Positions 3,873-7,400 of a DNA stretch of 64,000 nt are shown here, piece by piece; position 1 is the stretch's first letter, and every line of letters begins with the position of its first letter. The DNA is taken from contig NZ_JAUFQF010000004.1 of NCBI RefSeq assembly GCF_030409635.1, positions 2,824,241 to 2,888,240 on the forward strand. Reading direction: 5' to 3'. The stretch is from Vibrio agarivorans (lineage in GTDB: Bacteria; Pseudomonadota; Gammaproteobacteria; Enterobacterales; Vibrionaceae). The notes under the pieces are model-generated. The model had not been told where the DNA came from, did not search any database, and saw nothing but the letters and a program-made list of their open reading frames with translations. Position numbers and translations under genes: made by a program.

Positions 3873-3910
3873 ACAAAAAAAAGCCTAGCACCCTACAAGA
3901 GGTGCTAGGC
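3873..3910 (-). terminator. Rho-independent terminator after the small LexA-box gene
   Basis: Stem GCCTAGCACC / GGTGCTAGGC (3883-3892 and 3901-3910) with an 8-base loop. Read on the minus strand it is followed by a run of eight T. It would end the transcript of the 4043-4264 gene and insulates it from the MaoC-like gene. Confidence 0.85.
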
Positions 3911-4042: not shown

Positions 4043-4264
4043 CTAGTGATGAGTGCTTTCATGTTGACCAACATCTACGCCTTGATAGATATCCGATAGT
4101 GATCGAGCCGCACGTGATTTGTATTGACGCTTTTTCGCTTCATTCACAGCCTTATCGGCGTGCTCTAAGGCTTTCTGATGTTCTTGTGCCGCTTTGAGAA
4201 ACTCTGGATTATTCATTGCTTCTTTACGAAGGCGATTGATTCGCTCTAGTTTGTCTAACAACAT
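4043..4264 (-). CDS. Small helical protein of unknown function, probable SOS (LexA) regulon member
   Basis: A 73-residue charged protein I do not recognise. It begins MLLDKLERINRLRKEAMNN, is almost all predicted helix with heptad-like spacing (LEHADKAVNEAKKRQ), and ends in a His-rich tail (HESTHH). No signal peptide, membrane segment or Cys. The ATG at 4264 is supported by GGAGGT seven bases upstream; an in-frame TTG at 4276 overlaps that ribosome site and is unlikely. It is monocistronic: HD-GYP stop upstream, strong terminator downstream. The short upstream region contains two LexA-like boxes and a matching promoter, so DNA-damage induction is the main functional hint. It does not resemble DinI, YebG or SulA by eye. 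Confidence 0.75.
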   Translation of the reverse strand: MLLDKLERINRLRKEAMNNPEFLKAAQEHQKALEHADKAVNEAKKRQYKSRAARSLSDIYQGVDVGQHESTHH

Positions 4265-4276
4265 AAGCACCTCCAA

Positions 4277-4296
4277 TACTGGCTTTATATACAGTA
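4277..4296 (-). promoter_or_regulatory. LexA-type box 1 (promoter-proximal)
   Basis: TACTGG-N8-ACAGTA, which matches the gammaproteobacterial LexA consensus TACTGT-N8-ACAGTA at 11 of the 12 arm positions, with an AT-rich spacer as is typical. It begins 12 bases upstream of the ATG at 4264 and overlaps the candidate -10 hexamer, where LexA binding would exclude RNA polymerase. Confidence 0.65.
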
Positions 4297-4320
4297 TAGG
4301 AGATGGTCGAAGTTATGCAA
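4293..4320 (-). promoter_or_regulatory. Candidate sigma-70 promoter of the SOS-like small gene
   Basis: On the minus strand TTGCAT (4315-4320) lies 16 bases before TATACT (4293-4298), a five-of-six match to the -10 consensus. The -10 overlaps LexA box 1 and the -35 lies between the two boxes, a usual layout for a LexA-repressed promoter. Confidence 0.55.
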
Positions 4321-4325
4321 TGTTT

Positions 4326-4345
4326 TACTGTGATTTTATACAGTA
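4326..4345 (-). promoter_or_regulatory. LexA-type box 2 (promoter-distal)
   Basis: TACTGT-N8-ACAGTA with both arms perfect and an AT-rich spacer (GATTTTAT). It lies 49 bases from box 1 (start to start) in the gap between the HD-GYP stop codon and the small gene. The two boxes face only the small gene, because the HD-GYP gene is transcribed in the same direction and ends here. Confidence 0.75.
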
Positions 4346-4356
4346 ACCTTGTTAGG

Positions 4357-5574
4357 CTACTCGTCGTAGAACGGAGCAGAATCAACTTTAAGCGATTTAG
4401 GAGAGACTGCTTTAACGATCTTGTGTGATGATCCTTTAAGATCGAGATAGGTCACTTCGGTATAGCGTTGATATTTGTTGGAGTAGAAGCACTTGATCAC
4501 TGGCTTAAGCGGATCAGATTGATTCGACGTCCAGACAATACCTACCCTTCCGTCGCTCAACTCCACCAATGAACCGACCGGATACATACCAATACAGTTG
4601 ATAAACTTATAGACCAGCTCTCGGTCGAGGTGATTAGGTGTAAGAGAGAGCAAGATTTTAAACGCTTCGGCAGAACTCATGCCCGCCTTATAACAACGGT
4701 CGGCGGTAAGTGCATCATAGATATCAACAATACTGCTCATCCTACCGACAGTCGGCAACTGATCTTCTTTTAAGCCGTTCGGGTATCCTGTCCCATCGAG
4801 TTTTTCATGGTGCATCAAGCAAACATCACGACTCACAGGACTCAAACCACGTACTCCGTGAATGATTTCTTGCGCATACACCTGATGCAACTTCATGTGC
4901 TCAAACTCTTCTGATGTTAATCTACCTGGTTTGTGCAGCACCTCGTCATCCACTTTTACTTTGCCGACATCGTGAATAATGCCCCCAATAGCAAGCGACT
5001 TGAGTGTTTCACTGTCCATCTTAAGGTGCTTACCAAACGTTACTAATAAACAGGCGACATTAACCGAGTGTTCAAGTAAATAGCTGTCTTTGCTACGCAG
5101 TGCAGAAACACAATGAAGCGCATCAGAGTCCACCAGCGCGACTTCGATCAGTTCATCAGCCCACTGATCGATCTCTTCAACATCTAGCGGCTGACTGTTA
5201 AACGTTACGTTTAATAATCGCTGTGCTAACGTTTTCGCTTCTTTAATCAGTTTCTTAGCTTGTTTCTGTTGCGAGGCTCGAGAATAACGGCGAGGTGTTC
5301 GTTTCGTGGTTTCCGTTTGCTCTGAAGCGGGTGCAGGCTCGACCCCTTCATCTTCCGACAATGGTTTAATAACACAACCTTTCATCGAGAGGTTTTGATC
5401 AACATAGACATACTTAATGTCATTACTGACAAGACGCTCAATGCCGGCCTGGTTACTTACACGACCCGCATTGGATAAATTGACACGTTTGTTATTTTCT
5501 ATCCCGGTAACAAACATTCCGACCGAAAGATCGTCTATCGAGATCTTGACCGATTCTTCTGGGTTGTACAGCAT
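4357..5574 (-). CDS. HD-GYP domain cyclic-di-GMP phosphodiesterase
   Basis: A 405-residue cytoplasmic protein with an N-terminal DUF3391-like segment (about 1-100), a basic linker (RRYSRASQQKQAKK) and a C-terminal HD-GYP domain. Visible signatures are HSVNVACL, IIHDVGKVKVDD (metal-binding HD), HHEKLDGTGYPNGL (the GYP loop) and DIYDALTADRCYK, all intact, so c-di-GMP hydrolysis is expected. Such enzymes lower c-di-GMP and favour motility over biofilm. A good CRP site lies about 185 bases upstream of the start, which would tie the gene to carbon status. Monocistronic by spacing. Confidence 0.92.
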   Translation of the reverse strand: MLYNPEESVKISIDDLSVGMFVTGIENNKRVNLSNAGRVSNQAGIERLVSNDIKYVYVDQNLSMKGCVIKPLSEDEGVEPAPASEQTETTKRTPRRYSRASQQKQAKKLIKEAKTLAQRLLNVTFNSQPLDVEEIDQWADELIEVALVDSDALHCVSALRSKDSYLLEHSVNVACLLVTFGKHLKMDSETLKSLAIGGIIHDVGKVKVDDEVLHKPGRLTSEEFEHMKLHQVYAQEIIHGVRGLSPVSRDVCLMHHEKLDGTGYPNGLKEDQLPTVGRMSSIVDIYDALTADRCYKAGMSSAEAFKILLSLTPNHLDRELVYKFINCIGMYPVGSLVELSDGRVGIVWTSNQSDPLKPVIKCFYSNKYQRYTEVTYLDLKGSSHKIVKAVSPKSLKVDSAPFYDE

Positions 5575-6073: not shown

Positions 6074-6442
6074 TTAAGCTGTCTTGTAGATAACCTTATT
6101 ACCTGCTAGTTGCTCTTTTACTACCAAGTTTTCTTCAAGTAGTTTTTTAAGTGCGCCTGTTGCCCAAGAAGCCGCTTTAGCATCTTCTTGACCAGCCGCT
6201 AGGCCGATACCTTTCGGGTTAATACCTTCAGCGTTTTTCGCTACGATATCGAAAACCTGTTGTTGCTTAGGAGTCAGTGAAACGTTTGATGCCACTTTAG
6301 GTTGTGCGACTTCTTTTACGACAGCTTGTGCTGGTGCTTCTTTAACTGGCGCTACTTTCTTAGCAGACGCAACATTTGCTACGGTTGCTTTGATGTATTT
6401 TTGTAGTTTCGCTTGTACCTTACGCTTGTGAGCAAGTCTCAT
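6074..6442 (-). CDS. Small basic protein with C-terminal winged-helix-like region
   Basis: A 122-residue protein of unknown function. The N-terminus is strongly basic (RLAHKRKVQAKLQKYIK), followed by an Ala/Val/Lys/Pro-rich low-complexity linker (about 25-55) reminiscent of histone-like tails. The C-terminal 65 residues (LTPKQQQVFDIVAKNAEGINPKG... through VVKEQLAGNKVIYK) look like a MarR/winged-helix fold: helix, turn, recognition helix and beta wing. DNA binding is inferred. The ATG is preceded by GGAGAG and, further up, by a small palindrome that could form a leader hairpin. Monocistronic with its own terminator. Confidence 0.75.
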   Translation of the reverse strand: MRLAHKRKVQAKLQKYIKATVANVASAKKVAPVKEAPAQAVVKEVAQPKVASNVSLTPKQQQVFDIVAKNAEGINPKGIGLAAGQEDAKAASWATGALKKLLEENLVVKEQLAGNKVIYKTA

Positions 6443-6475: not shown

Positions 6476-6722
6476 GTCAAAAATTAATAGCGCGTTTTAT
6501 ACCAAAAAAATTGGACGATTTGTAGGGTAGCGAGTTGAATTGCTGCCAAATGCAGCCAAGTCACCTCAATTTATTAACAACCACTGTATCGATAATCAGT
6601 GAAATGATCTTATTTTCGTCACTTTAGTAGTAATTAAGGATACGGTTAGACAACGCGTTCAAGGCAAGAAACGATAACACCTTCTACTACACTTAATTCA
6701 GATATCTTAAAGAGCGTAGACG

Positions 6723-7400
6723 ATGAAAACTTTACACCTAAGTAATCGTGAGAGAATCACCCAATCAATGGTCCTCAAACTGATCGGCATTATGATCGGG
6801 GTCGCTCTGCTGTTTCTCTTTTTAACATCGCCCAGCATCAACACCGCTCTCATATCCTTGTTGGTCGCGGTTGCTGCGGTCGCAATGACCTACCACATCA
6901 TGCGCAAGGCCTATAATGGTTTCACCTTGACACCTACTCACTTGCAACAGCACAGAGTCAAAGGAGGCTGGGTCTTGTCGTGGCACAATATAGAGCGGAT
7001 AGGTCAGTGTGAGGAAGAGGTCGATGGTTGGAAGCGCCCACTTCCTTGGGTCGGAATTAGAATTAAGGACTATCAGCCGTTTGTTGACTCTATTTGTCCT
7101 CGACTTGCCGTAGAGCTCCTTATGGAGCAACGTGCACTACTATATGTAGGTGTCGCGGGAAACAATCGAGAGAAATTTCAAGATATGGTTTTGGACTCTA
7201 AACGCTATCAATCAGGTGACCGTTGTTTCAAAGGCCTGCAAGCGACAGTGGCGAACAGAATGCACCATATGCGAACCGCCTATGGCTATGATGTTTTTAT
7301 TGCTGAGGGTGATTTAGATAGGCCAATAGAAGAATTTATCGGCCTATCTCGACGTTATCTCGCAGCCGTAGAGCCAGTGTCAGATAAGACGGACAATTAG
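6723..7400 (+). CDS. DUF2982 family membrane protein
   Basis: A 225-residue protein with two closely spaced transmembrane helices near the N-terminus (about residues 18-37 and 42-62) and a cytosolic C-terminal domain containing WHNIERIGQ and RPLPWVGIRIKDY. Overall it fits the DUF2982 family of marine gammaproteobacteria, for which no function is known. It stands alone on the plus strand, convergent with the following hydrolase gene. The ATG sits after AAAGAGCG, a modest ribosome site. Confidence 0.75.
   Translation: MKTLHLSNRERITQSMVLKLIGIMIGVALLFLFLTSPSINTALISLLVAVAAVAMTYHIMRKAYNGFTLTPTHLQQHRVKGGWVLSWHNIERIGQCEEEVDGWKRPLPWVGIRIKDYQPFVDSICPRLAVELLMEQRALLYVGVAGNNREKFQDMVLDSKRYQSGDRCFKGLQATVANRMHHMRTAYGYDVFIAEGDLDRPIEEFIGLSRRYLAAVEPVSDKTDN

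Follow-up and report, generated by a model that had tools for sequence, protein, structure and literature searches.

Two LexA-type boxes stand in front of a 73-codon gene in the window analyzed here, a 64,000-nucleotide stretch of the Vibrio agarivorans genome, and raise the question of whether this small gene is a new member of the SOS response, which is best known from E. coli, and what its product might do there. An earlier note, made from the letters alone, had proposed a new SOS microprotein, LexA-repressed and damage-induced, that acts as a cell-division inhibitor, repair modulator or similar. The local elements it described were borne out: both boxes are present, each with a perfect LexA core, the small gene has 73 codons and a GGAGGT ribosome site (4274-4269), and a TATACT (4298-4293) overlaps the proximal box. 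The features of the locus are the following.

3883..3910, minus strand: intrinsic terminator downstream of the gene, an 11-bp stem followed by a T run
4043..4264, minus strand: apparent unfB homologue of 73 codons, with its ATG at 4264-4262 and its stop at 4045-4043
4269..4274, minus strand: ribosome-binding site GGAGGT, read directly
4277..4296, no strand: proximal LexA box, overlapping the -10 element and the expected transcription start
4293..4298, minus strand: putative -10 element TATACT, from the consensus of the relatives' upstream regions
4315..4320, minus strand: putative -35 element TTGCAT, 16 bp before the -10 element; weak, 3/6
4326..4345, no strand: distal LexA box, directly upstream of the -35 element

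LexA boxes and promoter of the 73-codon gene

The distal box, TACTGTGATTTTATACAGTA, and the proximal box, TACTGGCTTTATATACAGTA, share a perfect CTG-N10-CAG core, and the proximal box deviates solely from the longer TACTGT-N8-ACAGTA form. Because up to two mismatches make this long form unexceptional in the window (3 occurrences versus 2.27 expected), we rely on the perfect form together with the position and conservation of the sites. Scoring of the window with a weight matrix derived from the sites of the relatives made the two boxes its top two 20-mers, with scores of 23.7 and 21.9 and a next-best score of 13.4, a ranking that slightly favors them because these two sites were themselves included in the matrix. 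The third-best LexA-like site of the window, CACTGTATCGATAATCAGTG (6582-6601, score 13.4), lies between the divergent frames 6074-6442 (minus strand) and 6723-7400 (plus strand).

The boxes sit in the gap after a gene with HD and DUF3391 domains (HD-GYP-like; 4357-5574, minus strand). A scan for consensus promoters between 3700 and 4500 returned 0 versus 2.1 expected, the -35 element of the window being weak, while terminator-like sites numbered 2 versus 0.4 expected in the same interval. Given the terminator that follows the gene, its transcript is probably monocistronic.

Across the 4.9-Mb host genome, the perfect form TACTG-N10-CAGTA occurs at 12 places, versus 6 for a reversed control. Two of these sites are the boxes described here, two precede recN, one precedes uvrA, one precedes a SulA-like gene identified by its match to a SulA-like query, and the six others lie partly inside and partly between frames; recN and uvrA are putative assignments by sequence inspection. 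Only the promoters of recN and of the window gene carry two such sites. LexA itself is encoded in the same genome, where a 232-codon open frame matches LexA_DNA_bind with an E-value of 2.3e-29.

The earlier note had proposed checking whether the boxes are conserved upstream of Vibrio homologues, and they largely are. Among 151 loci drawn from 148 of the 163 matching genomes (the other 15 genomes were left out), in all of which the gene was located by profile search (151/151), a CTG-N10-CAG core lies within 130 bp of the start in 112, and at least two boxes are present in 70 of these. For comparison, 134 of 6423 background windows from these loci are boxed (2%), and 200 composition shuffles of the upstream regions gave a mean of 1.5 and a maximum of 6 boxed. 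Reduced to 147 distinct upstream regions, the set holds 110 with a box and 68 with two, whose spacing is 48-51 bp in 56 cases and 27-28 bp in 9. The distance from the start of the nearest box to the ATG is 32-42 bases in 101 of the 110 distinct boxed upstream regions; in the remainder, this box starts at -48 to -51 in 6 and at -84 or -88 in 3. In the 50 distinct upstream regions with a spacing of 48-50 bp, the distal box is directly followed by TTGA, at the -35 position, and the proximal box is overlapped by TATACT or TATGCT. As judged from these sequences, the two boxes flank and cover the putative promoter. Ribosome sites of the GGAGG or GAGGT type are likewise visible upstream of the relatives. 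Of the other genera, g101 has a box within 200 bp in 8/8 loci, one of them a broken copy, and g2 has one in 1/3 loci; a weak, broken match outside the genus (L264) was excluded from the count.

Probable identity with unfB and departure from the published distribution

The gene neighborhoods of the relatives connect the window gene with a family that already has a name. In V. mimicus, an NMT1-type periplasmic gene and then a GGDEF gene come after the relative (domains checked), and the relative's other side is occupied by a TPR-GGDEF gene on the opposite strand with queC beyond; inspection of the V. metoecus sequence gives the identical order. Because this order is the one published for VC1368-VC1369-VC1370 (PMC5963079), we tentatively identify the family with VC1368, and the window gene appears from its sequence to be the local version of unfB, a gene named in Vibrio already. 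The identity with VC1368 and VP1428 appears from gene order and annotation, as opposed to a comparison with the locus-tagged sequences. The novelty claimed for the microprotein is accordingly withdrawn: this does not appear to be a new SOS gene, its family having been described as unfB in 2012, as the available text of that report indicates (PMC3323433).

Previous work on homologues speaks directly to the regulation of the gene. In the available text of Sanchez-Alberola et al. (2012), LexA binds the VP1428 (unfB) promoter of V. parahaemolyticus in a gel shift (PMC3323433). According to the available text of Krin et al. (2018), VC1368 is listed as unfB, is 16-fold up with mitomycin C, and shares a transcript with VC1369 (periplasmic component) and VC1370 (GGDEF); survival of UV is reduced in a V. 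cholerae unfB mutant, while under mitomycin the only more sensitive mutant was tatABC and not that of unfB (PMC5963079). The proposed LexA repression and damage induction are therefore supported by the conservation of the boxes and, within the available text, by the published data on unfB homologues (PMC3323433, PMC5963079), and would extend to the present gene. In the literature searched, we found no description of unfB, VC1368 or VP1428 beyond these two reports, and no Vibrio-titled work appeared among the records listed on SOS-induced small proteins combined with Vibrio and LexA.

UnfB of the window and UnfB of the described species (VC1368, VP1428) are alike in being small Vibrionaceae proteins behind LexA boxes. 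They differ in context, as the window copy follows the HD-domain/DUF3391 gene whereas V. cholerae VC1368 leads VC1369-1370, and in transcription, as the window copy, judged by its terminator, is probably transcribed alone whereas VC1368 is, in the available text, co-transcribed with VC1369-1370 (PMC5963079).

The species range of the boxed gene is wider than its first description held. Boxed relatives were found in V. coralliilyticus, V. pectenicida, V. nereis and V. anguillarum, among others; to our knowledge, these four are not known as human pathogens. Boxed unfB is not confined to human pathogens, a new observation that stands against the 2012 view, and our census corrects the restriction of LexA-sited unfB to human-pathogen species given in the available text of that report (PMC3323433).

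Conservation of the gene and a clade that lost the boxes

The 73-codon frame is a real gene. A single-sequence search matched 163 of the 196 genomes of the genus, its own included (158 of the 189 better genomes), with best E-values per genome from 4.3e-31 to about 1e-5 across the 162 others; the same query found no match in the remaining 33 genomes. Among 295 genomes of the order, a profile of 13 sequences matched 17, every one of them from the same genus, so that no relative outside the bacterial family was seen in these 295 genomes. With a profile of 100 sequences at E <= 0.01, 200 of 329 genomes of the bacterial family matched, representing 4 of its 13 genera; 12 of the 200 genomes lie outside the genus, and two matches (G497, G529) contain a stop. 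Database proteins gave 198 matches, and among the best 120 of these every source-named organism was a Vibrio. Across 635 equal-length pairs of relatives whose dS fell between 0.1 and 1, the median dN/dS was 0.08, indicating that the protein is under selection; it was 0.11 over the 76 pairs that remain without the box-less clade described below. Copies with a premature stop or an altered tail (L184, L172, L263) suggest that some strains may do without the gene. A damage protein double-locked by LexA and kept in most of the genus Vibrio would be part of the DNA-damage response of these bacteria.

Known families offer little for comparison. The best family matches of the window protein had E-values of 0.19 (Pfam), 0.041 (NCBIfam) and 0.056 (PHROG), the best PDB match of a distant-homology search had an E-value of 0.31, and Pfam searches with 100 relatives reached a best E-value of 0.0021, each family appearing in at most 16 members among the 25 of 58 families listed. 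UniRef labels two relatives 'Transposase' (among the best 120 of 198 matches); no transposase family backed this label apart from a weak TnsA C-terminal match, found in 4 members with a best E-value of 0.026 among the 25 of 58 families listed.

A mobile element was rejected, no relatives having been found in viral contigs or phages. The 151 loci show 53 combinations of nearest neighbors, and since the window's upstream HD-domain gene recurs in 27 loci, we read this diversity more as rearrangement than as mobility. Plasmid pTHAF190c_c carries a UnfB relative (L266:2989-3219) that matches over half its length, located two genes after a cytosine methyltransferase, with no LexA box in 200 bp.

The 39 of 151 loci without a box fall into two types, 35 encoding proteins that begin MIW and 4 encoding proteins that begin MLK. 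The MIW loci (L040-L045 among them) keep unfB and its ribosome site, yet a perfect LexA core is missing from the 130 bp upstream; in 34 of the 35, no LexA-like site within 300 bp scores above the 95% shuffle level, which suggests that these loci retain the gene outside SOS control. In a tree of 131 rows, built from few columns and with bootstrap not settled, the MIW rows form one clade (98/99), and the box label changes three times in total. One clade, which we take to be the Splendidus group, lost the boxes; this is a new observation, and a clade that keeps the gene without them offers a natural comparison. The MLK type (L047, L048, L176, L171) is a divergent paralogue without a LexA box, present as a second copy in three genomes and as the only copy among the loci covered in a fourth.

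Predicted fold, terminal histidine and possible roles of UnfB

An AlphaFold model of the window protein places helices at residues 2-17, 20-53 and 56-59 with a mean pLDDT of 82.8, a pTM of only 0.44, and pLDDT values of 61 and 49 in the last two blocks. The predicted fold, new for this family, pairs a helical hairpin and a flexible tail. In an alignment of 100 rows, N10, R13 and H29 are invariant, and M1, E7, R8, L12, A16, F22, A26, L56, Y60, F65 and H73 nearly so, the F65 position being a valine in the window protein. These conserved residues may form a contact face and are targets for mutation.

The last residue of UnfB is nearly always histidine, which is a new observation. Histidine ends the protein in 136 of 151 loci (the rest being I in 5, T in 4, Y in 3, and L, V and K in one each) and in 119 of the best 120 of 198 database matches, a number that may be favored by a profile that itself ends in histidine; by comparison, among 50 long frames from the window, 2 end in this residue. 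A hydrophobic residue precedes the terminal histidine in 0 of the 136 locus tails and in 1 of the 119 database tails (YH; among the best 120 of 198 matches). A possible resemblance between the UnfB tail and the FtsZ tail peptide was also considered and plays no part in the readings below.

Taken as a whole, these observations are best explained, with a good deal of confidence, by the gene being this species' unfB, repressed by LexA through a double box and encoding an induced UV-survival protein that binds a partner. In undamaged cells, LexA dimers would occupy both boxes, one just upstream of the -35 element and the other over the -10 element and start site, and would shut the promoter tightly. 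Upon damage, RecA-DNA filaments would trigger LexA self-cleavage, releasing a short transcript that would end at the 3883-3910 terminator, and the strong ribosome site would then allow a burst of an 8.5-kDa protein. This protein would be built as a two-helix hairpin, then a basic stretch, then a flexible, conserved tail that nearly always ends in histidine. It would bind its partner stoichiometrically, making contact through both hairpin and tail, to promote survival of UV-type damage. The gene, its boxes and their spacing, the conservation and the predicted fold come from the present analysis. LexA repression, the monocistronic transcript and the partner-binding mode are what we infer for this organism; LexA binding, induction and the UV phenotype were established by others for homologues, in the available text of their reports (PMC3323433, PMC5963079).

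The alternative that survives best, possible if still rather unlikely in our judgment, is that the basic segment of UnfB makes direct contact with nucleic acid or a repair protein and that UnfB aids the processing of UV lesions or stalled forks. The published UV sensitivity of the mutant, in the available text, fits this reading (PMC5963079), as do the basic stretch in the second predicted helix and the pI of 9.4 of the window protein; however, charge is not conserved across the family, in which pI ranges from 5.1 to 10.7 with a median of 7.9, and no convincing match to a DNA-binding family emerged for the window protein or, among the 25 of 58 families listed, for its relatives. The earlier suggestion of a repair modulator or similar thus keeps its compatibility with the published UV sensitivity, as the available text gives it, while its mechanism stays putative (PMC5963079).

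Returning to partner binding, the terminal histidine invites comparison with Lon. In the available texts, a terminal histidine is one main recognition element in SulA and other Lon substrates (PMC11986505), and LarA activates Lon through a His-ended tail (PMC10665427); in these tails the histidine comes after hydrophobic residues. We tried the Lon H-degron (x-L/I-L/I/V-H) on UnfB and rejected it, the terminal histidine being present and the preceding hydrophobic residues absent. Given that absence, we regard Lon as no more than a possible partner and see the tail as a putative docking motif. By description, UnfB resembles LarA, the Caulobacter Lon activator, in being small and stress-induced with a predicted helix and a flexible His-ended tail; however, LarA is under heat-shock and not SOS control, and its tail is described in the available text as rich in hydrophobic residues whereas the last residues of UnfB are polar (PMC10665427). 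We regard as speculative, and on balance improbable, the bolder idea that UnfB represents a new type of SOS effector, a hairpin whose His-closed tail would dock on a Lon-like AAA+ protease, as LarA does, or on a replication or repair complex, would switch its activity during the SOS response, and would then disappear with it.

That UnfB is instead a division inhibitor, an analogue of SulA that holds division during DNA repair, seems to us very unlikely. The two are alike in type of control and small size, the Vibrio SulA-like gene also having a LexA-type box, and both end in a conserved histidine, found in 119 of the best 120 UnfB matches and in 100 of 102 SulA-like proteins of 118-150 aa. However, a Tyr or Phe stands before the last histidine in 89 of these 102 SulA-like proteins whereas UnfB is polar there, with no hydrophobic residue before the histidine in 136 UnfB tails. 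Further, no sequence relation between the two was seen, PF03846 being neither among the matches of the window protein nor among the 25 of 58 families listed for its 100 relatives, and UnfB is predicted to be all-helical whereas SulA has four helices and five strands, as the available text describes it (PMC10743992).

The role of division inhibitor also looks taken. A Vibrio SulA-like query matched 194 of the 196 genomes of the genus, this one included, the two misses being genomes of about 1 Mb, and all 21 loci examined (L236, from the window's own genome, L112-L125 and L267-L272; 19 different places) are preceded by a LexA-type box. A boxed SulA-like gene across the genus disfavors UnfB for this role, and the idea of UnfB as a stand-in for an absent SulA was rejected; we found no evidence for the cell-division inhibitor proposed earlier. 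PF03846 itself is matched at E <= 0.001 in 109 of the 196 genomes and over its cut-off in 96, with some hits falling in longer frames of 215-266 codons.

The SulA-like gene may also have been named before. In 20 of the 21 SulA-like loci, purC (Pfam-checked on L236) lies downstream on the same strand, the exception, L113, being one of two SulA-like copies in its genome. The available text of Krin et al. gives VC1191 as unfA, a 'putative superfamily II DNA and RNA helicase' whose transcript also covers VC1190, a putative PurC (PMC5963079), and some sources apply the same helicase name to SulA-like proteins. From the purC neighbor and the shared name, unfA is probably the Vibrio SulA, an assignment by position and name as distinct from the VC1191 or VP1264 sequence; counting against it, the window genome's own SulA-like copy has no PF03846 match by itself. 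The available main texts of Krin et al. and Sanchez-Alberola et al. do not mention sulA, no work was found on 'SulA-like' in Vibrio, and no other relevant description of unfA, VC1191 or VP1264 appeared among the matches listed. If unfA is the Vibrio SulA, this would place division control in the regulon.

Finally, a chance coincidence of boxes and frame, or a functionless relic, has next to no probability: the long motif with two mismatches is not rare in the window and six of the genome's 12 perfect TACTG-N10-CAGTA sites have no evident meaning, but this reading is already contradicted by conservation, with two perfect sites flanking the promoter, 110 of 147 relatives' upstream regions boxed versus a 2% background, a dN/dS of 0.08, and, in the available text, the published induction and phenotype of a homologue (PMC5963079).
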